From an uncultured cyanobacterium (GTDB lineage: Bacteria; Cyanobacteriota; Cyanobacteriia; CAKZMO01): DNA of 37,726 nt. The notes beneath the pieces are model-generated. The model saw only the letters and a program-made list of their open reading frames with translations. It was not told the DNA's origin and searched no databases. The stretch's first letter is position 1. Every line of letters begins with the position of its first letter. This document shows, piece by piece, positions 7,682 through 37,726 of this stretch. A program made the position numbers and the translations under genes. The DNA lies in NCBI GenBank assembly GCA_937128595.1, contig CAKZMO010000185.1, positions 1-37,726 of the forward strand. The letters are read 5' to 3'.

Positions 7682-8878
7682 ATGCGAACGATCGCCAACA
7701 TCAATGCCAAAATCCAGGATCAGAAAGCGGTCATTTGGACGGTTGAAGAGGTCAAACAGCGAGTTCCTGAATTAGGCGTTGCTGAGGTGGCGCGACAGGT
7801 AGATGTAGTGACCACTGGCACCTTCGAACCGATGGAGTCATCTGGAGCCGTGATCAATCTGGGGCATACCGATCCTCCAATCAAAATTCGCCAGTGCTGG
7901 CTCGATGGAGTGCCTGCCTATGCTGGATTTGGAGCCGTCGATTTGTATCTAGGGGCGACCCAGATGGCCGAGGCCGTCAGCGGAGAAGGGGCTGAATCAG
8001 ACGACTTGCGCGATCGCGGCGGCGGTCATGTCATCTCTGATTTGATCGCGGGTAAGTCGATCCACTTACGAGCCATTGGGCAAGTCACCGACTGCTATCC
8101 GCGTTCATCTTTTGAAACGACCCTGACCCGCGACACCATCAACCAGTTTTATCTGTTCAATCCGCGCAATCTTTATCAAAACTTTGTCGTAGGCGTCAAT
8201 GGCGGCGATCGCCCCCTCTATACTTATTTGGGCCCACTCCTGCCCCGTCTTGGCAATGCGATCTATTCCAATCCTGGGGCAATTTCACCTCTGTGGAATG
8301 ATCCAGGACTACAGCTCATCGGCATTGGCACTCGGATTTTTCTGGGCGGAGGAGAAGGCTATGTGGCCTGGGAAGGAACCCAGCATTTTCCACTGCAAAA
8401 GCGTTTACCTAACAGCACCCCTATCGGGCCAGCCGCGACCCTAGCGCTGATTGGAGATGCAAAAAAAATGGATACTCGTTGGATCAAAGGGTGCTATCTG
8501 CGGGGATATGGGCCGTCTTTAATGCTGGGGGTTGGTGTGCCGCTGCCTGTTCTTCACGAAGAGGTGATCTTGCGCTGTTCGGTGATGGATGAAGACATCG
8601 TAGCTCCAGTAGTCGATTTCTCAATTCCTCGACGCGTTCGTCCGACGTTTGGCTTGGTCAGCTATGCTCAGCTGAAGTCGGGCCGCATCACCATCGACAC
8701 CCGAACAGTTCGCACCGCCCCTCTCGCTAGCATCTATCTTGCCAATCAAGTGGCTCTTGAACTCAAACATCGGATTGAGGCAGGCCAATTTTTTCTGAGC
8801 GAACCTGTCGCGCCCCTTCCCATGGATCGAGCATTTTTGGCACAAGATCAGTGGCCTGGACGAGTTAATCTACAGTAG
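7682..8878 (+). CDS. Homocysteine biosynthesis protein (DUF39/HcyBio family)
   Basis: A 398-residue soluble protein of the DUF39/HcyBio family (COG1900). Matching stretches are TTGTFEPMESSGAVINLGHT, GVPAYAGFGAVDLYLGATQM, GGGHVISDLIAGKSIHLRA and a Gly-rich core GTRIFLGGGEGYVAWEGTQH. In methanogens this family, with a NIL/4Fe-4S partner, is needed to make homocysteine from aspartate semialdehyde using sulfide. Cysteines that could carry a persulfide include Cys72 (IRQCWLDG) and Cys138 (VTDCYPRS); I cannot align them here. The C-terminal CBS domains of the Methanosarcina protein are absent. The start is ATG 7682 without a strong ribosome site. Its end overlaps the convergent hydrolase gene by 14 bases. 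A NIL-ferredoxin lies at 17471. The reaction is inferred from family. Confidence 0.9.
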   Translation: MRTIANINAKIQDQKAVIWTVEEVKQRVPELGVAEVARQVDVVTTGTFEPMESSGAVINLGHTDPPIKIRQCWLDGVPAYAGFGAVDLYLGATQMAEAVSGEGAESDDLRDRGGGHVISDLIAGKSIHLRAIGQVTDCYPRSSFETTLTRDTINQFYLFNPRNLYQNFVVGVNGGDRPLYTYLGPLLPRLGNAIYSNPGAISPLWNDPGLQLIGIGTRIFLGGGEGYVAWEGTQHFPLQKRLPNSTPIGPAATLALIGDAKKMDTRWIKGCYLRGYGPSLMLGVGVPLPVLHEEVILRCSVMDEDIVAPVVDFSIPRRVRPTFGLVSYAQLKSGRITIDTRTVRTAPLASIYLANQVALELKHRIEAGQFFLSEPVAPLPMDRAFLAQDQWPGRVNLQ

Positions 8879-9788
8879 GGGCAGCCCCAAACGGGCGATC
8901 GCCCTGTTTTAGCAATACCAGCACTTTCCAAAGCTCTAGGGTGTGTAGCCAGCCAACAAATCCTGCATACAGACAGACGTCTCGAGTCGAAACCAGATAA
9001 ACATAATGAATGCCAAAGTCATTTTTCCACAGACGTAGGGTTCGACCGTCTTCAAAGGTGTGCCAGATCCTAGCCTGTTCAAGGTTACGTGGATGGCTGT
9101 CCGTGATACCAGGAATAGCTCTCACCTGCTGAATGACAAAGTCAGGGGCGATCGCCGCTCCCACAGAATCATCTCGCCAAAACTGATGAATCAGCCTCAC
9201 CACTTCAGGATGAGTCTTGAGACGGGCATGGTCTATATCAGGCAAACACACGAAGCGAGCATGGGAAACAAAAGTAGACATGACCGGAATGGTGCCATCA
9301 CGACCTCCGTCAATATCGCCCGCAATCACCAGTGTTGGAATCCGAGCCGCAATTGATTCGGCCATCGCCCGCCGATTAGTTCCTAGATCAGTCGCAATGC
9401 CAATTCCCCACCCCAGCGGATCTAGAAGACGACCCAAGTCGGCTCCGCCCACAGGCGATGCTACCAGCACGAGAGAATGCACCCGACTCCACCATTCTGG
9501 ATGACGGTGCAGCACCTCCAGCCAAATCAATCCGCCCATAGAATGACCGACGATTCTCCAGGGACGATGGGGATAGGCTGCGGCAGTTTGAATGGCGATC
9601 GCCTCCACTCTTTGAATCAGCGGCTCAATCCGCAACCAAGTCGGAACGTATCCCAAATCTGGCGCACTGTAGGGATGTTTGTTCCTTGTGAGCCGATTTG
9701 CCAAGATGACCATATCTTTGTTTCCGTCTGCCCAACCATGCTGGGCAAACAGATGAAAAAATGGCGTATCAGATTTTGTTGCGTTCAT
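8865..9788 (-). CDS. Alpha/beta-hydrolase
   Basis: A 307-residue alpha/beta-hydrolase fold protein. The nucleophile elbow GHSMGG puts Ser83 as the catalytic serine; HGWADG near 17 supplies the oxyanion-side loop. The acid is likely Asp160 or Asp164 in AGDIDGGRDGTIPV and the base His187 in DIDHARLKTHPEV. Residues from about 210 form an extra C-terminal region rich in Trp and aromatic residues, not part of the core fold. No signal peptide is seen, so it probably acts in the cytoplasm. Substrate unknown (lipase, esterase or acyltransferase). Its 3' end overlaps the DUF39 gene tail by 14 bases in convergent orientation, so read-through from either side would make antisense RNA. Confidence 0.88.
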   Translation of the reverse strand: MNATKSDTPFFHLFAQHGWADGNKDMVILANRLTRNKHPYSAPDLGYVPTWLRIEPLIQRVEAIAIQTAAAYPHRPWRIVGHSMGGLIWLEVLHRHPEWWSRVHSLVLVASPVGGADLGRLLDPLGWGIGIATDLGTNRRAMAESIAARIPTLVIAGDIDGGRDGTIPVMSTFVSHARFVCLPDIDHARLKTHPEVVRLIHQFWRDDSVGAAIAPDFVIQQVRAIPGITDSHPRNLEQARIWHTFEDGRTLRLWKNDFGIHYVYLVSTRDVCLYAGFVGWLHTLELWKVLVLLKQGDRPFGAAPTVD

Positions 9789-25854: not shown

Positions 25855-25948
25855 TATAGCTACAGCCATTAGCCTTAGGACGTTTTTGTGTCCGCGCAGT
25901 GCGCGGACACAAAAACGTCTATGTCCTAAATAAGCTGACTACAGCTAT
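25855..25948 (+). repeat. Foldback repeat, type 1, copy B
   Basis: It starts TATAGCTACAGCC and ends GCTGACTACAGCTAT. The central hairpin is a perfect 19-bp inverted repeat, GACGTTTTTGTGTCCGCGC (25879-25897) with its complement at 25901-25919, loop AGT. The right half TATGTCCTAAATAAGCTGAC is identical to copy C at 34055-34140. It abuts the type 2 element at 25949. Confidence 0.92.
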
Positions 25949-26050
25949 GTGGTGCTACGCGCTGATATAAAACCAATAGTTGATGGAGAAGCCGCGCGGT
26001 GCGCGGCTTCTCCATCAATATCTGTCCTAACCTATCTGCGCACTGCTATA
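25949..26050 (+). repeat. Foldback repeat, type 2, complete copy
   Basis: The central perfect 18-bp hairpin is TTGATGGAGAAGCCGCGC (25980-25997) with its complement at 26001-26018, loop GGT. The left flank GTGCTACGCGCTGATATAAA is shared with the copy cut at the window start. The right end TGTCCTAACCTATCTGCGCA then CTGCTATA keeps the spacing TGTCCTAA-N5-CTG-N6-GCTAT of the type 1 elements, so both types look related. Confidence 0.9.
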
Positions 26051-26095: not shown

Positions 26096-27976
26096 CTAAG
26101 AACACTGCCAAAGATTGAGGAGGCGATCGCTTCCTCCAGAAATGAGCATGCGTCCGTTGGGAGTAAACGCCAGCGCCCGAATTGGTTGCTGATGTCGAGT
26201 TATGGGTACACCCAGTCGTTTTCGCTTCGAAACGTTCCACATCGTAATAGTCATTCCAGATGCCGTAGCTAGAATTTGACCATCGGGACTAAAGGCGATC
26301 GCCGTTAACGAACTTGCTTGGCGTGTCGCAATGGCGATCGATTTTTTGCGCGCCAGGTTAGTTAGCTCCACGGTTGAGCCTTCCGCCTGAGCTAAAAGCG
26401 TACCCTCAGGACTAAACTGAACCACAGTCATCCCTTCAAGCTGCCGGTTGTTCTGCCAGATCGAGCGGCGGCTAGAAATATTCCACAAATCGACTGTGCC
26501 GTTGAGGCTACCCAAGGCAAGGGTGCGTCCATCAGGATGGAATGACATAGAACGGATAGAGCGAAATTGGGTGGGCAATGAGTGCATCAAGCTGCCCGAT
26601 TGGGTGGCCCAAAGCTGCAGTGTTGTTCCTGTGGCACTGGCCAAAATCGGCTTTTGCGAGCTGAACGCAAGAGCTTGAATGGTATCAGGCTGACGGGGCA
26701 GCGTGTGCAGCAGATCTCCGTCGGGTAGAGACCAGAGACGGATTTGGCGATCGTAGCCACCACTCGCTAAAAGCATTCCGTCTGGACTGATGGCGATCGC
26801 CGTGAGCCGCCCATTGTGTCCCTGCAAAGATTGAATCAACCGACCATCTGGCAAGCTCCAAAGCTTCACTAAACAATCGTAACTGGCACTCGCCAACAAG
26901 CTATTGGAAGGATGAACGGCGATCGCACGCACCTGATCAGTATGCTCTCTGAGCATCATTTTCCAGGCAGGCGTTGCCCACAATGCAGGCGTTACCGGAG
27001 CAGGTAAAGGCGGCCAAGGTGCAGGTTCAAACTTAGGTTTCTCAGGAACCGGAGCAACAGTATCCGGCAAGCTTAAGATGATGCCTTCACCGTAAAGCTG
27101 CTGAATGATGAGCTTAGCCGTGCGAGGCCGATTGCCCGGAAACGGCTCCATCAAATCTTCTAGTACTCGCACCAGAGATGGCGAGATATGTGCCGCAAAC
27201 TCTCGCCACACCAGCCGATTGCTCTGCTCATCGATAGACAAGCCCATAGGATGGATGCCTGTCATCAAGTGAACAAAGGTACGACCTAAGGCAAAGAAGT
27301 CAGACTCAGGACGAGCCCGCCCTTCGGCCTGCTCGTTGGGGGTGTAGCCCGCCGCAAAAATACGAGTTCCGGTAAGACTGCCACTGTGACCTTGCAGATA
27401 GGTTGCTGTGGCATCTCGCACTGCTCCAAAGTCAATCAGCACAAGCTGCCCCGCAGGAGTCAACATAATGTTCGAGGGCTTGATGTCACGGTGAATCAAC
27501 CCTTGCTGGTGAATTACATCTAGAATCGCAAGCAGCTGAACTAGCCACTTGACCGCTAAAAGCTCATCTACAGGCTGATTGTTGCGCCGCCTGAGCCACT
27601 GGTCGAGAGAGACCCCCTCGATATATTCCATGACTAAGCAGTGGAGAGGGGTGGTAATGTCATCAGGCCACGTAAAATAGCTGTCTTGCTCGACTTTAGG
27701 AATACCCGGATGGTCGAGACGACTGAGAACACGGGCTTCTCGCTGAAACAGATCAATGGACTTGCGCTGGCTACCTGGATCGTAAAAGCGTCCTAGATTC
27801 AGAACCTTTAAGACTTTCGTCGTAGGCTTACCGTTGGGACGCAGAGCCGCTTCATCCGCGACCTCGAAGGTTTCTCCAAAGCCACCTGAACTGAGCGATC
27901 GCCGAACTCGATAGCGGTCGTGTAGCAGAATCCCTGATTCAATTAAAGATGCTGATTCCTGCCCCCAGGCGGTCAC
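26096..27976 (-). CDS. Ser/Thr protein kinase with WD40 propeller
   Basis: 626 residues. The kinase domain (21-310) has the P-loop SLSSGGFGETFEV, likely catalytic Lys57, Glu80 in helix C, HRDIKPSN with Asp164, DFG at 182-184 and GTRIFAAGYTPNEQ in the activation segment, so it should be active. A Pro-rich linker (EKPKFEPAPWPPLPAPVTPA) leads to seven WD40 repeats from about 345 (REHTDQVRAIAVHPSNSLLA, with ASASYDCLVKLW), enough for a closed propeller. No membrane helix, so a cytoplasmic signalling kinase. GTG start with GGAG at spacing 8. It lies 307 bases downstream of the NB-ARC gene in the same direction. Substrate unknown. Confidence 0.95.
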   Translation of the reverse strand: MTAWGQESASLIESGILLHDRYRVRRSLSSGGFGETFEVADEAALRPNGKPTTKVLKVLNLGRFYDPGSQRKSIDLFQREARVLSRLDHPGIPKVEQDSYFTWPDDITTPLHCLVMEYIEGVSLDQWLRRRNNQPVDELLAVKWLVQLLAILDVIHQQGLIHRDIKPSNIMLTPAGQLVLIDFGAVRDATATYLQGHSGSLTGTRIFAAGYTPNEQAEGRARPESDFFALGRTFVHLMTGIHPMGLSIDEQSNRLVWREFAAHISPSLVRVLEDLMEPFPGNRPRTAKLIIQQLYGEGIILSLPDTVAPVPEKPKFEPAPWPPLPAPVTPALWATPAWKMMLREHTDQVRAIAVHPSNSLLASASYDCLVKLWSLPDGRLIQSLQGHNGRLTAIAISPDGMLLASGGYDRQIRLWSLPDGDLLHTLPRQPDTIQALAFSSQKPILASATGTTLQLWATQSGSLMHSLPTQFRSIRSMSFHPDGRTLALGSLNGTVDLWNISSRRSIWQNNRQLEGMTVVQFSPEGTLLAQAEGSTVELTNLARKKSIAIATRQASSLTAIAFSPDGQILATASGMTITMWNVSKRKRLGVPITRHQQPIRALAFTPNGRMLISGGSDRLLNLWQCS

Positions 27977-28283
27977 GACGGTACTCCTAGCTAACTGGGT
28001 TCACTTCTATAATGTGATTCAAATTGTGATGCAAAATTGCATGAGATCCGAAGCTAAGTCAGAGTTGGGAACAGATACACATCTATACTCCCAGGAATAA
28101 CAGACCTCGAAATGATGCCGATCATCTAAGAACGCTCAGAAATAGTAGCATTCCAGCTTGAGATCCTAGACAATATTGATCACACATCATCACTTCAATA
28201 GATCCATTACCGCTGGAACTCATTTCAGACTAGAGTTAGCTTAATTTTACTCATTAGCAAACGTTGTAGCGATCGAGCAAGCC
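27977..28283. other. Intergenic upstream of kinase gene
   Basis: 307 bases between the NB-ARC gene and the kinase. On the minus strand TTGCAT and TATAGA with a 17-base spacer (about 28032-28004) make a weak promoter candidate. No WD40-coding remnant was found when reading on from the NB-ARC stop. Confidence 0.35.
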
Positions 28284-30017
28284 CTATGAAACATTATTTT
28301 CTACTTGCTTAGAAGTATCATTTGCAACGGGTGGCGCTAGTAAAATCCGAATATTGCGCTCAGCGTAGCCCACAATCTCAGAAGGTTGATTATGCACCTC
28401 TTCTAGGAGCTGTTTTAGTCCCGCTTCCACCTGGGTTGGATGCACCATGCTGTAGAGGCGATCGCGCACCCGATTGAGAATCAGTCGAACTTGAATCGGC
28501 AGCATGTCGTCATCCGTGCCACGATCGCTGACAAGTGCATGACTCCGAAGTAGGTTGAGATTGTCAGAGTGCGGTGGCTGAATCAGTTGCGCCAATTCAC
28601 GACAAGTGCGTTCGATAAATTGCGTCGTCACAAATTTCATCACCACAGGCTGGAGCGTAAAAATGGTCTCGCCGCCATCTGCAATTGCATCTTTTTCGAT
28701 GAGCGATCGCCGCTGAAGTGACTGAAGCGCTCCTAACAACTCTGTTAGTGATACTGACCGCCACAGGTTTTGCCTCAGTTCAGCCAGTGAAATGGGCTGA
28801 CAGGCGATCGCCAACCAATACATCACTTCTCTCTCTAGCTTAGAGAGGCGACCAATTTGCTGAGCAAGCAATTCCGACACCACGTCTGACACGAACACCG
28901 TGCTCTGACTCATGAATTGAATGATGTCGCCACCAAAGAACTCTCGAACAATCTTAGAAACTACCTTCAGAGCTGATGGGTTTCCCCGATAGCGCTGAAT
29001 CAACGCATCAAATGCGCTTCCCTGGCTAGACAATCCTGAGTTCTCTAGAATGGCTTTACCATCTGAGACGGAAACACCTTGAAGGCGGAGTTCTCGAACA
29101 GGTTCTCCTGTTCCAGCCATCGCGGCAATTTCACGGGGTTGCTCGCGGCTAATAATAACGAGACAACTTTGATGACGTTCGCTTCCAATGCGACGCAGCA
29201 AAGCTCCATAGCCCTGATATTGCTCACGATATTGGCCTGCCAATTGTTCCTCTTGCAACACCGTCTCTACGTCGTCCAGCAACAGTAAGCAGCGGCGATC
29301 GCGCAATTCGTCCAACAGCTGTGACAAGAGCTGATCCAGCCTACTTCCACTTGCTGACGACTCCTCTTCTGCGGACAAAGAATTTGGCTGGGACGATTCT
29401 GTAGACTCCGTACCTGTAACTCTATCCGTTTCGTCTGCTGAGTCCTTTGAAGTGTGAAGAAATTCAAGCAGTTCGGCCAACAATTCTTCGACAGGTGGCG
29501 CGCTCTGTAGAGAACGGTAGAACAAAGTCTGAAACTGAGACTGCACCTGTTCGGCAGCTTTGACCATAAGCGATGTTTTGCCCATTCCCGCCATGCCCAA
29601 CACGCCTACGAGACGACAGCTTTTATCAACCATCCAGTTACTCAGAGTACTCAGTTCTGACGATCGCCCACAGAACCCTAAAACTTCAGGCGCTTCTCCC
29701 CAATCTTGATGGCGGCTATCGGTCGAGATGTTGTCGCGCACAACGATCGTTTGCCAATCCAGTCCCAAAGCTTCGCAATAAGCCTTAAACGCTGAGGCTC
29801 GAATAGGATGGCGACCCGCCAAAAACCGCTTCCAAGTACCACTCGATATGCCGTTGGCATAAGGCCCCCCTGGAAAGCAAGAATAGGTTGGGTCTAGAAT
29901 TCTGCTGGCTTCGATGAGGCAAGTGTCATCGTCGTCAGTGCTCCAGCCCCAACCCTTCTCTCGTCTGGTCTGTCGCACTCGCTCCAGGCCAATTGGCGAA
30001 GCAATTAAGGTTGGCAT
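28284..30017 (-). CDS. HTH-NB-ARC (STAND) ATPase lacking sensor repeats
   Basis: A 577-residue STAND-class ATPase. Residues 1-95 contain a helix-turn-helix-like segment (SGTWKRFLAGRHPIRASAFK, then AYCEALGLDWQTIV). The NB-ARC P-loop is GMAGMGKTSL at 141-150 and Walker B is RCLLLLDDVE near 255, followed by a winged helix (about 390-480, EREVMYWLAIACQPISLAEL). Residues 480-560 (LLRSHALVSDRGTDD, IQVRLILNRVRDRLY) match the linker that in many cyanobacterial relatives leads into pentapeptide and WD40 repeats; here the chain stops just there (GYAERNIRILLAPP). So the usual sensor part is missing. ATG with AGGGGTGAG before it. Role in regulation or defence not shown. Confidence 0.9.
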   Translation of the reverse strand: MPTLIASPIGLERVRQTRREKGWGWSTDDDDTCLIEASRILDPTYSCFPGGPYANGISSGTWKRFLAGRHPIRASAFKAYCEALGLDWQTIVVRDNISTDSRHQDWGEAPEVLGFCGRSSELSTLSNWMVDKSCRLVGVLGMAGMGKTSLMVKAAEQVQSQFQTLFYRSLQSAPPVEELLAELLEFLHTSKDSADETDRVTGTESTESSQPNSLSAEEESSASGSRLDQLLSQLLDELRDRRCLLLLDDVETVLQEEQLAGQYREQYQGYGALLRRIGSERHQSCLVIISREQPREIAAMAGTGEPVRELRLQGVSVSDGKAILENSGLSSQGSAFDALIQRYRGNPSALKVVSKIVREFFGGDIIQFMSQSTVFVSDVVSELLAQQIGRLSKLEREVMYWLAIACQPISLAELRQNLWRSVSLTELLGALQSLQRRSLIEKDAIADGGETIFTLQPVVMKFVTTQFIERTCRELAQLIQPPHSDNLNLLRSHALVSDRGTDDDMLPIQVRLILNRVRDRLYSMVHPTQVEAGLKQLLEEVHNQPSEIVGYAERNIRILLAPPVANDTSKQVENNVS

Positions 30018-31724: not shown

Positions 31725-33455
31725 TTAGTTGCCATTCTCTATCCATGCTTTAAGTTCCTGTGCAGGGAGCGGCGGACTATAAAAATAGCCCTGCATGATA
31801 TGACAGCCATGTTTCTTCAGTTCAACGAGCTGGTTCTCGGCCTCAATGCCTTTCGCAACAACTTTGAGCTTGAGGTTTTGTGCCATCGCGATCACAGTCT
31901 CAGTCAGAATGGCTTCTTCGTCATCTTCAGCGATATCATCAATGAAGGATTTGTCGAGCTTGAGCTGATGAATAGGCAATCTCTTGAGGTGTTTAAGCGG
32001 CATACAGCGCATCCCAAAACCATCAATGGCGATGCAAACCCCTGCGGCAGCAAGATCGCTTAAGATTTGAGCGATCGCCTCAAAATCCAGGTTCATCAAG
32101 CAAGATTCGCTGATATCGAGCACCAACTGTTTTGAGTCAAGCTTGCTGTCGCGGACAGACTGGAGAACGACTGAGGTAAAGTTTTCGCTCTGAATTTGCT
32201 GCGCCCAAAGATTTACCGATACTTGGAGCGGAATCAGCGTGAGCGATCGCCAAGCTTGTACTTGAGCACAAGCCTGTTTCAGAACCCAGTCTCCCAATGT
32301 TGGCAGCAAATTTGCCCGCTCTGCGATAGGAATAAATGTTTCGGGCAACAGCAAACCCTGAGTAGGATGCTGCCAACGCAACAGTGCTTCTACACCCACC
32401 ATGCGCTCAGATACGAGGTTGATTTGAGGTTGGTAATACAGCTCAAGCTGACCGCGTTCAACTGCGTGGATGAGGTCTTGCTGCAGCTCTTGTCGCTGAG
32501 TATAGGCTGCACCCAACTCAGGAGAATATATACAGAAAAAGGACTTTTGCTCTTCGACACAAGATTCCATCGCGATCTGAGCATTTTGAAGCAATGCAGA
32601 TGGAGTATTGCCATGTTCGGGTGAAAAGGATAGACCGACTCGCACTGACAAGGTACGAAGTTGACGAGCCTGTTCATAGGGAGGCGAAAGGACACTTAGG
32701 AGGCTTTGTAGCTTAGCAAGAACATCTTCCATGACCAGCGCATTAGAGACCACCACCCCAAACTCGTCGTTACTCAAACGAGCAATAATGCTGTCAGTGG
32801 AGGTTTCTTGAAGTCGGAGGAATTGGTTGAGACGATCTGCGACTTGCTGAACAATAACGTCGTCTAGAGGCTGATCCGGCTGAATTGGGGCGTTCGACGG
32901 AGCGACATGAATACGCATCATCGCAATGATAGATTCAGGTTCGCTTTGCTTCTGATCTAGCAGCTCCCTCAGACGTTGGTGCAACAGAATCAGATTGGGC
33001 AAGTTGGTTAGTGGATCGTAAAAGGCCAGATGATTCAGGTTTTCTGCTGCGCGCTTCATCTCGGTTTTGTACGGGTTGGCGATCGCCTCTTGTCTAGCGA
33101 GACGGGCACTCACAGCATCCATCAACTCTGCACTTGTAAAAGGCTTAGTCAGATAGTCATCTGCTCCTAAATTCATGCCTTGCCTGACATCGGGCTTGTC
33201 TACCTTCGCGCTTAGAAAAATAAACGGAGTAAACGCGGTCTTAGAATCAAGTCGGAGAGCCTCAAGCACCTCGTATCCATTACACTTAGGCATCATGATG
33301 TCGCAAATGACTAAGTCAGGTAAGTAGTGCTTTGCCATTTCGATGCCTTCTTCCCCGTCACCCGCATCAATGACCTGAATTCCCTGATGCTTGAGGATTT
33401 TCGCAATATTGTTTCGAATGCCTTTCTCATCTTCGATTACAAGAACTGTTTTCAT
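31725..33455 (-). CDS. Response regulator with degenerate GGDEF and EAL domains
   Basis: 576 residues. The receiver (1-120) is intact: acid pair Glu8/Asp9, phospho-site Asp52, Lys104 in LTKPF. The GGDEF-like domain (140-310) begins YDPLTNLPNL but has LSNDEF at 228-232 where GGDEF should be, so it should not make c-di-GMP. The EAL domain (320-576) keeps Glu356-Ala-Leu, Asn415, Lys499 and Gln555, but the metal motif DDFG is DGFG (Gly479) and the catalytic AEGVE is AKGIE (Lys535), so hydrolysis is also doubtful. It probably binds rather than turns over c-di-GMP. Same strand as and downstream of the PAS kinase, 965 bases apart. Confidence 0.95.
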   Translation of the reverse strand: MKTVLVIEDEKGIRNNIAKILKHQGIQVIDAGDGEEGIEMAKHYLPDLVICDIMMPKCNGYEVLEALRLDSKTAFTPFIFLSAKVDKPDVRQGMNLGADDYLTKPFTSAELMDAVSARLARQEAIANPYKTEMKRAAENLNHLAFYDPLTNLPNLILLHQRLRELLDQKQSEPESIIAMMRIHVAPSNAPIQPDQPLDDVIVQQVADRLNQFLRLQETSTDSIIARLSNDEFGVVVSNALVMEDVLAKLQSLLSVLSPPYEQARQLRTLSVRVGLSFSPEHGNTPSALLQNAQIAMESCVEEQKSFFCIYSPELGAAYTQRQELQQDLIHAVERGQLELYYQPQINLVSERMVGVEALLRWQHPTQGLLLPETFIPIAERANLLPTLGDWVLKQACAQVQAWRSLTLIPLQVSVNLWAQQIQSENFTSVVLQSVRDSKLDSKQLVLDISESCLMNLDFEAIAQILSDLAAAGVCIAIDGFGMRCMPLKHLKRLPIHQLKLDKSFIDDIAEDDEEAILTETVIAMAQNLKLKVVAKGIEAENQLVELKKHGCHIMQGYFYSPPLPAQELKAWIENGN

Positions 33456-34420: not shown

Positions 34421-37303
34421 TTAATTAGCGACCGAAGTATCTGCATTGGAAAAGCTCTGACGCAAAGGGAGCGTAATAGTAATGCATGTTCCTTTACCGG
34501 AGTCGCTTTCCACTTTGATTGTGCCGTGATGCAAATCGACACTTTTCTTCACGATCGCCAGTCCTAACCCGGTGCCTTGAATAGCGCCAACATTACTGCC
34601 TCGGTGAAAAAACTCAAATAGCCGTGTTTGGTCATCTAGAGGTATACCGATTCCCTCATCTCGAATCTGCAGAATACAAGTGCCATCTTCATAGGTGAGG
34701 TTGCATTCGACACGACTGTGGGGCTCAGAATATTTCACCGCATTTGACAGCAAATTATTGAGCATCTGTCGTAGCAGTTTGGAGTCGAGAAACGCAGGTC
34801 TTGGAGTTCCGCTCTGAGTAAACGTGACCACATGACTTTTGCCGAAACTTCGCTGAGCCTGAATGACCGTGTCTTTGCAGAATGTATCAAGCTCAAGCTC
34901 AATATATTCTATTTCAAGGCGATCGCGCTCGGCTCTTCCAATAAATAGAACATCGTCAAGCAGACGGGTCATATGCTGAATCGACTCATACACCTGCTGA
35001 AATAACTCCTTTTCTTCCTCCTCAGAATTCTTGAAGTAATCGAGAATTTCGACAGATGACATGATTGTTGTCAGGGGAGTTCGAAACTCATGAGATGTCG
35101 TTGAAATAAACCGCGATTTCAGGTCACTCAACTCTCGTTCTTTCGCTAGCGCTTTGAGAATTTCTTCTTCCAGCTGCTTGCGCTCGGTAACGTCTCTCTG
35201 AATAGCCATCCAATGGGTCGTATGTCCAGAGGCATCCGTGATCGGAACAATTACCGTATCGACCCAGAATTCTGATCGATCTTTTCGATAGTTGATCAGC
35301 TCTACTTTTGCGGTCGTCCACCGTTCTAACGCATCACGAATAATATCGAGGGACTTTCGATTAGTTTTTGGCCCCTGTAGCAGGCGCGGAGATTTTCCCA
35401 AAACCTCATCGAGATGGTAGCCCGTGTTGCGAGTAAACGCAGGATTGACGTAAACGATGCGCGGTCCAGGTTCTGAAAGGGGTTCCGTTTCGGTGATGAT
35501 AATGGAATCATTGGCGTTGGTTACCACCGACTCCAGAAGTCTAAGTCGGTCTTCGACCTGTTTGCGAGATGTGATATCCATCAAGACCCCATCCCAGAGG
35601 GAACTGCCATCGAGACGACGCTGAGGTTGGGCGATCGCCTGAATCCACTTGAGGTCACCAGACTTGAGAAGAATTCGGCCTTCCCACAACCAAGGAGCTA
35701 GAGAATGCGCTGACCGAGATAGAGAACTGTAAAACGTCTGAAGATCATCTTCAAAAATGCATTCAAAAACAGACGCCGCAGAAGCGCTAATTTCCTCAGC
35801 CTCCATCTCGAAGATATCGCGACAGCCTGGACTGACATATGAAAAAGAGAACTGGCGTTGGCTTGCCTGGGCGTAGTCCGTATCGCCCTGCAACTGAGTC
35901 AGTCGAAAAATCATTCCCGGCACATTCGCAACCAGGTTTTGAAATTGAACTTTGCTGTCTCGCAAAGCCGCTTGAGCATCTTTTTGCTCAGAAATTTTTT
36001 CAATGATGCCTAAGATTAAGCATGGACAGCGAGACTCATCCCGCACGGTTGCCGTCGTCAGTTTGATCCAGAGATGCGTCCCATCCTTCCGCAAACATCG
36101 CCGCTCAATGGAATATTGCTCTTGATTTCCATCAATTAAGGCTTGAAAGTTAGCGACATCTTGCGTCAGATCTTCCGCCAGAGTGAAGTGGAATAGAGTC
36201 TTGCAAAGAAGCTCGGCTTGGCTGTAGCCCAGCATAGTTTCAAGGGCAGTGTTGGCTTCGAGAATACGACCGCAAGGATCAAGAGTCACAATGCCTACGG
36301 AAGCATTTTCGAAAATTGCCTGAAATCGAGCTTCGCGAGCAACCCCTGCAATTCGTTGGGCAGATACAAGCGACTCCGATGAGAGTGACATGTCCGAAGG
36401 ATCTGGTTCAGTTGCATCGGATGATACAAGATATTGCTGGCTCTCTAAAGCTTGATTTGTACGTTCTAGATAGGAATGAAGCTTTTGCTCATGGGAAATA
36501 TCTTCGACAATACCTTCGTAATAGAGAGGAGTATTGTGGCGATCGCACACCAACCGTCCGCTTTCTGACACCCACAGCATTTGCCCATCGGGTCGTTGTA
36601 TTTGGGTTCTAAAATGGCGTACTTTTCCTTCTTCTTTAAGCTGAGAGAGAAAGGTCTGCCAAGCATTCGGCTGAACGTAATGGACTATTACTTCGTCAGA
36701 AGACGGCGAACGGGTTGAAGCCTGAATGAGTTCGCCAATACTGAGATATCCGTAAAGATGAGCGGCGGCAGCATTAGCGGCTGTGATGCGGCCATCTAGA
36801 TCTTTTTGCACCACACCAATGGGCAGATAGTCTAAGACGGAATCGCTAGACAGGAACTCAGGAGCCGTATCTAGAGCCGTCTGGGGCGGTTGAGATTGTT
36901 CTAAAGGAATGCGCGGTGCTGGATTGTCAGCAGAGCTTTCACAAGGTTGCCACAAACACCAGATTTGCTCAGTCTGGTGAGGCGTATTGTGATAGTCAAG
37001 AATGCCTGTCGCTGGTGTCAGCCGTCCGGATCGAGAAACGAGAGTCACGTCGATAGGAGCAACAGCTTTACCCGCCTGAAGCGATTGCAAGGCGTTGATC
37101 AGGCGATCGCGACTTTCTGGATGGACAACATCGAGCCACTGAAGGTGCAGTGCCTCATCAGCAGAATATCCTAATACTTTTTGCCATGTGTCGTTTACAT
37201 AGAGGACTTCCCCGGAAGGAACCACGACTTGAACCAAGTCATGAACTTGGTCTAACAGTCGTTTTAGGGGTAAGTCGAGGCGTCCGGTCTGTGGCTTCTG
37301 CAT
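34421..37303 (-). CDS. Multi-PAS hybrid-type sensor histidine kinase (no receiver)
   Basis: 960 residues from ATG 37303; a GTG at 37390 adds 29 residues before the first PAS domain. Five PAS/PAC units are visible: VHDLVQVVVPSGEVLYVNDT; LPIGVVQKDLDGRITAANAA; IFENASVGIVTLDPCGRILE; LVANVPGMIFRL with SYVSPGCRDIF; and NANDSIIITETEPL with VYVNPAFTRNTGY. The HisKA motif SHEFRTPLTTI puts phospho-acceptor His at about 738. The ATPase domain has NNLLSNAVKYS, DEGIGIP and GTGLGLAIVKK. No membrane helix, so signals are sensed in the cytoplasm. PAS5 has GKSPRLLQGPKT, like a LOV motif but without its reactive Cys. The REC-GGDEF-EAL regulator lies downstream. Ligands unknown. Confidence 0.95.
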   Translation of the reverse strand: MQKPQTGRLDLPLKRLLDQVHDLVQVVVPSGEVLYVNDTWQKVLGYSADEALHLQWLDVVHPESRDRLINALQSLQAGKAVAPIDVTLVSRSGRLTPATGILDYHNTPHQTEQIWCLWQPCESSADNPAPRIPLEQSQPPQTALDTAPEFLSSDSVLDYLPIGVVQKDLDGRITAANAAAAHLYGYLSIGELIQASTRSPSSDEVIVHYVQPNAWQTFLSQLKEEGKVRHFRTQIQRPDGQMLWVSESGRLVCDRHNTPLYYEGIVEDISHEQKLHSYLERTNQALESQQYLVSSDATEPDPSDMSLSSESLVSAQRIAGVAREARFQAIFENASVGIVTLDPCGRILEANTALETMLGYSQAELLCKTLFHFTLAEDLTQDVANFQALIDGNQEQYSIERRCLRKDGTHLWIKLTTATVRDESRCPCLILGIIEKISEQKDAQAALRDSKVQFQNLVANVPGMIFRLTQLQGDTDYAQASQRQFSFSYVSPGCRDIFEMEAEEISASAASVFECIFEDDLQTFYSSLSRSAHSLAPWLWEGRILLKSGDLKWIQAIAQPQRRLDGSSLWDGVLMDITSRKQVEDRLRLLESVVTNANDSIIITETEPLSEPGPRIVYVNPAFTRNTGYHLDEVLGKSPRLLQGPKTNRKSLDIIRDALERWTTAKVELINYRKDRSEFWVDTVIVPITDASGHTTHWMAIQRDVTERKQLEEEILKALAKERELSDLKSRFISTTSHEFRTPLTTIMSSVEILDYFKNSEEEEKELFQQVYESIQHMTRLLDDVLFIGRAERDRLEIEYIELELDTFCKDTVIQAQRSFGKSHVVTFTQSGTPRPAFLDSKLLRQMLNNLLSNAVKYSEPHSRVECNLTYEDGTCILQIRDEGIGIPLDDQTRLFEFFHRGSNVGAIQGTGLGLAIVKKSVDLHHGTIKVESDSGKGTCITITLPLRQSFSNADTSVAN

Positions 37304-37726
37304 CTGCGAAAAATATCTCAGTAAGACGCGAGGCTCAAACAAACTGTGAAGACTCGCTTCTTTTAACGCTTCGTCAAATCGCACCCACACTAAAAGCTGT
37401 CATAGCAAAAATTGTGGTGGTGGCAGCAATCGCTAAAGCGGCTTGATTGAGCAGTTTGATTAAGCAGTTTAACTAATTCGTTACGCTCTTTTGCACTCAG
37501 CAATATTCTACCTTTGATATAGAATTCCCAATTCTTTGGATAAAGTCCTGTGAATGTTTTTTACCTAGAGACACAAAGCTTTGCACCGTAAGCATCAAGT
37601 GCGATCGCAGCCCGCTCCTCCTCTCATCTAGCACTTCACAAGCGATTTAGTATCGCTATACAACAGTGAAATCGGCGTTGCACATTCGAAGAATGATTTT
37701 GGTAGGGGCATCGCAATGCGATGCCC
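37304..37726. other. Upstream region of PAS kinase, window end
   Basis: 423 bases with no supported gene. It holds the kinase promoter region, a near-direct repeat GCAGTTTGA/GCAGTTTAA around 37450-37475 and the palindrome at the window end. Confidence 0.5.
37706..37726. repeat. Perfect 10-bp hairpin at window end
   Basis: GGGCATCGCA, then A, then TGCGATGCCC, forms a perfect hairpin that reaches the last base of the window. It is probably the left part of another foldback element, since the flank GGTAG precedes it and its partner would lie beyond the edge. Confidence 0.7.

Follow-up and report, generated by a model that had tools for sequence, protein, structure and literature searches.

A sensor-less cyanobacterial STAND protein encoded beside a Ser/Thr kinase: a candidate signalling pair comparable to AfsK-AfsR

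The window analysed here is the whole 37,726-nucleotide (nt) contig CAKZMO010000185.1 of an uncultured cyanobacterium (draft assembly GCA_937128595.1, 801 contigs, contamination estimate 7.95%). Two of its genes, which lie 307 bp apart on one strand, are the subject of this study: the first codes for a short STAND protein with a helix-turn-helix (HTH)-like N-terminus and an NB-ARC core, and the second for a Ser/Thr kinase ending in a WD40 propeller (Table 1).

The NB-ARC domain of the 577-residue STAND protein scored 37.7 bits against a Pfam cut-off of 23.5. Its Walker A residues are G141, G144, G146, K147 and T148; K147, T148 and D248, from the Walker A and B motifs, are invariant in the alignment. 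The AlphaFold model, built on a 33-row alignment, has a mean predicted local distance difference test (pLDDT) value of 85.3, falling below 50 at residues 202-215 of the acidic insert. Compared with the PDB it gave Z scores of 19.3-21.0 for CED-4 chains and of up to 22.1 for plant resistosome cores, and its alignment to CED-4 (4m9s_A; residues 99-519, Z 20.7, root-mean-square deviation 4.4, 341 aligned) supports the winged-helix region. The nucleotide-binding profile also reached AfsR in the PDB (8k60_I, E 3e-5), with plant NLRs scoring higher. Neither Pfam nor the model revealed a C-terminal repeat sensor: the chain ends with helices 505-560, where homology to the long forms stops and which are missing from the ~445-residue short forms such as L135. 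In the alignment with the WD40-fused protein of locus L036 (46% identity), the short form stops just ahead of the WQAYL linker of the latter.

The 626-residue kinase matches Pkinase (90.9 bits) and WD40 repeats in Pfam. K57, E80, H162-R163-D164, N169 and D182-F183-G184 are invariant across an alignment of six kinases, so that it can fairly be called active-looking; in the Gly-rich loop, Ser replaces the first Gly. Its AlphaFold model (mean pLDDT 79.4) has 28 strands in the propeller, which make up seven blades of four strands each, but the predicted template modelling score of 0.51 leaves the relative placement of the kinase and propeller domains unsure. In the PDB the propeller was matched best by the prokaryotic WD40 domain 5yzv of Thermomonospora, which we take to be PkwA. 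Both structural statements of the first-pass annotation, which was made from the sequence, are thus borne out: that the HTH-NB-ARC chain ends at the junction where its WD40-fused relatives go on, and that the next gene encodes an active-looking kinase with a seven-blade WD40 domain.

No linker or WD40 remnant was detected in the gap between the two genes (tblastn with the L036 tail, no match at E ≤ 10); the same query did pick up the kinase propeller (E 3e-40). Promoter-like sites numbered 8, versus 4.5 (standard deviation 2.2) in shuffled sequence, and terminator-like sites 4, versus 4.6 (standard deviation 1.9), the strongest hairpin being 3' of the kinase gene.

Table 1. Positions, in the window, of the two genes, their domains and the gap that separates them
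Feature	Position	Strand	Basis and remarks
Short HTH-like/NB-ARC STAND protein	28284..30017	-	577 residues, ATG start; AlphaFold pLDDT 85.3; in the short clade
N-terminal helical, XRE/HTH-like region (residues 1-100)	29718..30017	-	Sub-cut-off HTH_31 match; model helices; kept in nearest orthologues
NB-ARC core, nucleotide-binding domain to winged-helix region (~residues 110-480)	28578..29690	-	Pfam, alignment, model
Acidic Ser/Thr-rich insert (residues 191-230)	29328..29447	-	In none of the eight closest orthologues
C-terminal helices (residues 505-560)	28338..28505	-	Common to ~540-residue short forms and L036
Intergenic gap	27977..28283	.	307 bp; no terminator-like site; no WD40 remnant
AGGAG, ribosome-binding-like	27984..27988	-	7 nt ahead of the kinase GTG start; read from sequence
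Ser/Thr kinase-WD40	26096..27976	-	626 residues, GTG start; Pfam and AlphaFold model
Kinase domain (~residues 18-295)	27092..27925	-	Pfam and six-kinase alignment
Seven-blade WD40 propeller (residues 336-626)	26099..26971	-	28 model strands; Foldseek to 5yzv

Relatives of the STAND protein were collected from 388 genomes of the class, with at most three candidates scored per genome; the figures below describe this sample and are no census. The protein itself as query gave matches at E ≤ 1e-66 in 92 of the 388 genomes, with open reading frames (ORFs) clustering near 530-600 and ~1200 residues, and a profile gave matches at E ≤ 1e-85 in at least 251. In the scan of named loci the single-protein query found no match and the loci came from the profile query. 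The regions retained were those picked by hand for diversity and the best 80 of 180 confirmed named loci. A first tree of 85 rows placed the window in a set of 35 rows, all short (support 99), the others being 43 long and 7 short forms. For the larger tree, 232 NB-ARC matches were reduced to 216 by score and coverage filters, to 152 at 90% identity and to 149 by removal of three unclear ends. There the window lies inside a clade of 65 rows, all of them short (support 100; hereafter the short clade), with all 72 long forms and 12 other short rows outside; being unrooted, this tree does not give the order of the two forms in time. Of the complete relatives found, the eight nearest (L111-L118) measure 540-558 residues and are 46-49% identical to the window protein; the long WD40-fused relatives have 28-42% BLAST identity to it in the NB-ARC core. 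A linker pattern of the WQAYL type proved a poor class marker (21/72 long rows, 0/65 short-clade rows and 2/12 other short rows).

Short rows not counted as paired also occur outside the short clade (11, of which 7 are among long forms and 2 have no downstream data). Judging from sequence, real truncations of the long form do occur elsewhere: in L092 (820-2634 and 2-847, both on the minus strand) a WD40-fused form is apparently split by a frameshift, with the linker kept and WD40 in the overlapping next ORF.

For the analysis of gene order, the neighbour was whichever ORF of 120 residues or more (or any kinase) came first within 800 bp, and the main count was made on non-redundant rows with downstream data, excluding the window and the loci fetched by kinase similarity. 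A same-strand kinase gene was found directly downstream of 29 of 70 short forms versus 0 of 37 long forms (Fisher 4e-7), and directly upstream of none (0/70 short, 0/64 long). Inclusion of the window and of two kinase-selected loci brought the paired short forms to 32 of 73, 4 short and 35 long forms without downstream data being dropped. Among the remaining flank ORFs that reached 120 residues, 665 in all, kinases numbered 6; the binomial tail against this background, 1e-40, assumes independent rows, which these are not. For the nearest relatives (L111-L118 plus the incomplete L160), the kinase gene comes next in 9 cases out of 9, with a kinase domain 52-55% identical to that of the window; WD40 motifs are visible in eight of the nine kinases, and the contig of the ninth (L113) ends within the kinase gene. 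Gaps were at most 351 nt in 30 of the 32 pairs, and the genes overlap in seven pairs, four by 4 nt and three as reckoned from the first possible start codon. All pairs but L229, a long branch, are inside the short clade (31/32), over which they are dispersed (11 changes of the paired label are needed on the tree). One kinase, in L140, is 958 bp from the NB-ARC gene, i.e. beyond the 800-bp limit, and was counted as unpaired.

Searches were also started from the kinase. The kinase-similarity loci (L191-L229), kept out of the main counts, returned known partners in genomes G104, G128, G130 and G201 plus three new places with an upstream NB-ARC gene, G128 C3 (L202/L224), G128 C2 (L208) and G130 C89 (L204/L229). 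An NB-ARC neighbour is lacking in eight of the ten wider regions (L220-L229), and the same-strand upstream genes in L220, L222, L223, L225, L227 and L228 look unrelated by eye. Within six genomes, the best kinase match was the NB-ARC partner in G104, G130 and G201 (trivially so in G000, the source of the query); the partner ranked second in G128, and G313 has a short form without adjacent kinase. A reverse search of the 388 genomes with a WD40-kinase profile gave 17 matches, of which three of the four strongest were paired (window included; G020 was not), as were two of the 13 weaker ones (G117 and G130). An orphan WD40-kinase orthologue, 47% identical to the kinase of the window and without NB-ARC neighbour, was seen in L109 (6784-8721).

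The partner kinases are related to one another. From 89 kinase ORFs, 65 domains were retained for a tree (score and coverage filter, 95% redundancy removed), 36 of which, kinase-selected loci included, were partners. All 36 fall in one supported clade of 47 rows, together with 11 non-partners (L140 among them); the other 18 of the 29 non-partners are outside. Their C-terminal parts differ: the ten partner kinases submitted to Pfam comprised four with CHASE2, four with TPR, one with a propeller and one with no module, and the kinases of L145 and L150 extend by 17 and 25 residues beyond the kinase domain. At least four Cys precede the kinase domain in 16 of 32 pair kinases. Over the 32 pairs, distances between NB-ARC cores and between kinase cores were correlated (r 0.73, 0/5000 permutations as high), which species history alone can explain. 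As far as sequences can tell, the constant link is that of the kinase domain to the STAND protein, the propeller being one choice among several interchangeable modules.

The reading that we favour, with a confidence moderately above even, is that the two genes form a conserved signalling pair in which the kinase controls a sensor-less STAND regulator, a cyanobacterial analogue of Streptomyces AfsK-AfsR. It builds on the kept short length, the recurrent fixed-order adjacency, the common partner-kinase clade and the exchangeable C-terminal modules. The constancy of the kinase beside a changing C-terminal module makes it most likely that the module signals to the kinase and that the STAND protein is what the kinase acts on. 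The kinase would be the input, its C-terminal module (here the WD40 propeller) sensing a cue and setting kinase activity. The short STAND protein would be the output, an ATP switch made of NB-ARC and winged-helix region that has no sensor of its own and whose N-terminal HTH-like region probably binds DNA. Most likely the kinase phosphorylates it, as AfsK does AfsR, which would shift its ATP/ADP state or its oligomerisation and hence its action on target promoters. The cue, the phosphorylation and the DNA binding are inferences.

Several observations weigh against this proposal. The HTH match of the 577-residue protein is weak (HTH_31, E 0.002, 18.8 bits versus a cut-off of 27), as it is in the relative L111 (E 6e-4, below cut-off). 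Thirty-four of the 65 short-clade rows were not counted as paired (L128 and L151 have no downstream data), among them all 17 rows of the Pseudanabaena-type group; the short form is thus able to function with no kinase gene beside it. Conversely, among the other sampled genomes that lack a pair, G020 has the closest homologue of the kinase, and no NB-ARC gene adjoins it. Because six partner kinases went into the kinase profile, the sample is biased towards partner-like sequences and under-represents distant kinases. Restricting the distance comparison to the 16 divergent pairs lowered r to 0.35, with 178/5000 permutations as high. No Ser/Thr was conserved in the paired forms alone by the thresholds used. 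Position T425 holds Ser or Thr in 72% of the paired forms, in 59% of the unpaired ones and in 14% of the long ones, and thus tracks the short clade, not the pairing; at T373 the shares are 88%, 44% and 74%, respectively. Thr148, the last Walker A Thr, proves nothing because it is invariant in long forms too. No kinase/NB-ARC fusion was present among the ORFs collected to that point. A weak promoter-like match (28293-28321) lies ahead of the kinase gene, and co-transcription of the two genes across the 307-bp gap is no more than possible. In AfsR itself, phosphorylation barely alters transcription activation in vitro, according to the sections available of PMC10936776.

In L074, the gene that follows a Pseudanabaena-type short NB-ARC gene (7888-9120) codes, in place of a kinase, for a protein in which a class III cyclase-like segment was recognized by eye, and which is a possible alternative partner; L107 has a 415-residue ORF at the matching position.

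Among the other explanations, the one that survives best, though we judge it unlikely, makes the kinase propeller the missing STAND sensor supplied in trans: the two proteins would form a complex in which the propeller holds the NB-ARC closed, like the fused WD40 of Apaf-1-like proteins, and kinase activity would be secondary. The long relatives do have WD40 at that very position, the nearest relatives pair with visible WD40 kinases (save for the truncated ninth), and the short form resembles CED-4, a propeller-free protein under the control of a partner protein. However, other partner kinases of the clade end in TPR or CHASE2 or carry no C-terminal module, and the catalytic residues of the kinase are retained. 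The suggestion of the first-pass annotation that a sensor-less STAND regulator borrows the propeller therefore holds for its first half, the chain carrying no repeats; the borrowing is unsupported as a general rule, because the kinases paired with other clade members bear TPR or CHASE2 or stop shortly beyond the kinase domain. Contact between propeller and STAND protein is possible in the window's own subgroup. Slightly less probable still is local control of transcription, in which the STAND protein would regulate the kinase gene next to it and the two proteins would never meet, as could be argued from the HTH-like N-terminus (weak as its match is), the invariable gene order with the regulator first and the promoter-like match ahead of the kinase gene. 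The overlap of seven pairs out of 32 points to co-expression over control by a separate promoter, and the conservation of the partner-kinase clade through changes of C-terminal module also speaks against this reading.

We give a small chance only to an anti-phage or cell-suicide pair. STAND proteins act in bacterial immunity, the PADLOC PD-T4-6 kinase models reach E 2.7e-93 on the kinase domain, covering residues 14-294 only, and two STAND relatives have weak PADLOC matches (best L138, PDC-S73, E 5e-7), but such a kinase-domain model would match many kinases, the window STAND protein has no PADLOC match at E ≤ 0.01 and none of the five other window genes tested in Pfam reads as a defence gene. 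Lastly, the idea that a WD40-fused protein was recently truncated and has its kinase neighbour by chance, for which the unpaired short rows outside the short clade and the split form of L092 might plead, is ruled out, at the present density of sampling, by the place of the window in the all-short clade, the kinase adjoining 9/9 nearest relatives and the gap free of remnant. The first-pass annotation had left this alternative standing; by its sequence relationships the protein is not a broken one, since no WD40-fused form occurs in the short clade, orthologues keep their short length and the kinase neighbour, with WD40 in the nearest subgroup, recurs. Neither is WD40 present in all orthologues, then, nor is the adjacency unique, the two outcomes that the annotation had named as its refutation.

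If the kinase-STAND pair is what we propose, a broader view can be put forward, to which we accord somewhat less than even confidence: a widespread and undescribed cyanobacterial module, parallel to two-component systems, in which each member of a dedicated Ser/Thr kinase clade with plug-in sensors (WD40, CHASE2, TPR) would be wired to its own sensor-less STAND regulator, the STAND ATP switch being the receiver. To our knowledge, the targets of most cyanobacterial Ser/Thr kinases are not established, and a kinase clade travelling with one kind of STAND protein provides a substrate guess for many species. STAND proteins usually bear their own sensor; the pair shows how kinase input might come to replace direct sensing at their switch. 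The fused WD40 of the long forms and the WD40, TPR or CHASE2 carried by a separate kinase in the short ones also amount to a natural experiment in sensor placement.

Two GC-rich, near-perfect palindromes, resembling repetitive extragenic palindromes, lie 3' of the kinase gene (25980-26018 and 25879-25919). Their cores are alike (ccgcgca ... cgcgcgg and ccgcgca ... tgcgcgg, respectively), and the former also scores as a terminator-like hairpin. The five further window genes with Pfam matches are comEC-like, histidine kinase, GGDEF-EAL, GSDH and one with a marginal DUF1990 match. A response regulator-GGDEF-EAL gene (31725-33455) is downstream of a multi-PAS histidine kinase gene (34421-37390) on the same strand, together an ordinary-looking cyclic di-GMP two-component set.

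The pairing of such kinases with short STAND proteins was not found described in the best-ranked open-licence literature, nor was it seen in the portions at hand of PMC1262709, PMC2176072, PMC8195603, PMC7159879 and PMC5587647. Elements of it have precedents in the accessible parts of these papers. WD40, TPR, CHASE2 and other modules are already catalogued on cyanobacterial Ser/Thr kinases (PMC2176072), in a survey whose available text mentions no NB-ARC and describes no partner; genes for WD40 proteins have been described next to kinases (PMC5587647); and an AfsK-like kinase with an AfsR-like target has been proposed in Deinococcus (PMC1262709). The Anabaena kinase all4838, of the CHASE2 type (excerpt of PMC2176072), appears in an RNA-seq table on nitrogen deprivation (excerpt of PMC3141674).

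As to known systems, PkwA and the cyanobacterial WD40 kinases (cbSTKII) have the same architecture as the window kinase, a kinase domain with seven WD40 repeats. CED-4 and Apaf-1 have the NB-ARC fold in common with the STAND protein; they carry a CARD in place of the HTH-like domain and belong to eukaryotic apoptosis. The cyanobacterial HTH-like/NB-ARC-WD40 proteins have a homologous core, and L036 also shares the N-terminal region, but they are ~1200 residues long with fused WD40, stand outside the short clade and are never beside a kinase (0/37). AfsK, for its part, has a C-terminal repeat propeller. The medium SARPs (SARP-NB-ARC, ~600 residues, no TPR) are likewise sensor-less and of similar length; they differ by their N-terminal domain, and the sections of PMC10972967 at our disposal describe no dedicated adjacent kinase. 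The closest parallel is AfsK-AfsR, where, as in the window, a Ser/Thr kinase is linked to an NB-ARC regulator with an N-terminal DNA-binding domain (in the window a probable one, HTH-like and weakly matched). In the available sections of PMC10936776, AfsK phosphorylates AfsR at five residues, including the last Walker A Thr, and phosphorylated AfsR has more ATPase activity, ATP activation being counteracted; afsK is upstream of afsR with two genes between, whereas the window genes are adjacent with the regulator first. Unlike AfsR, the window regulator has neither TPR nor SARP (OmpR-type DNA-binding domain plus BTAD; none at E ≤ 0.01 in Pfam), and its kinase, at 39.4 bits against an NCBIfam AfsK equivalog cut-off of 1300, belongs to a type that differs from AfsK in its variable C-terminal modules.

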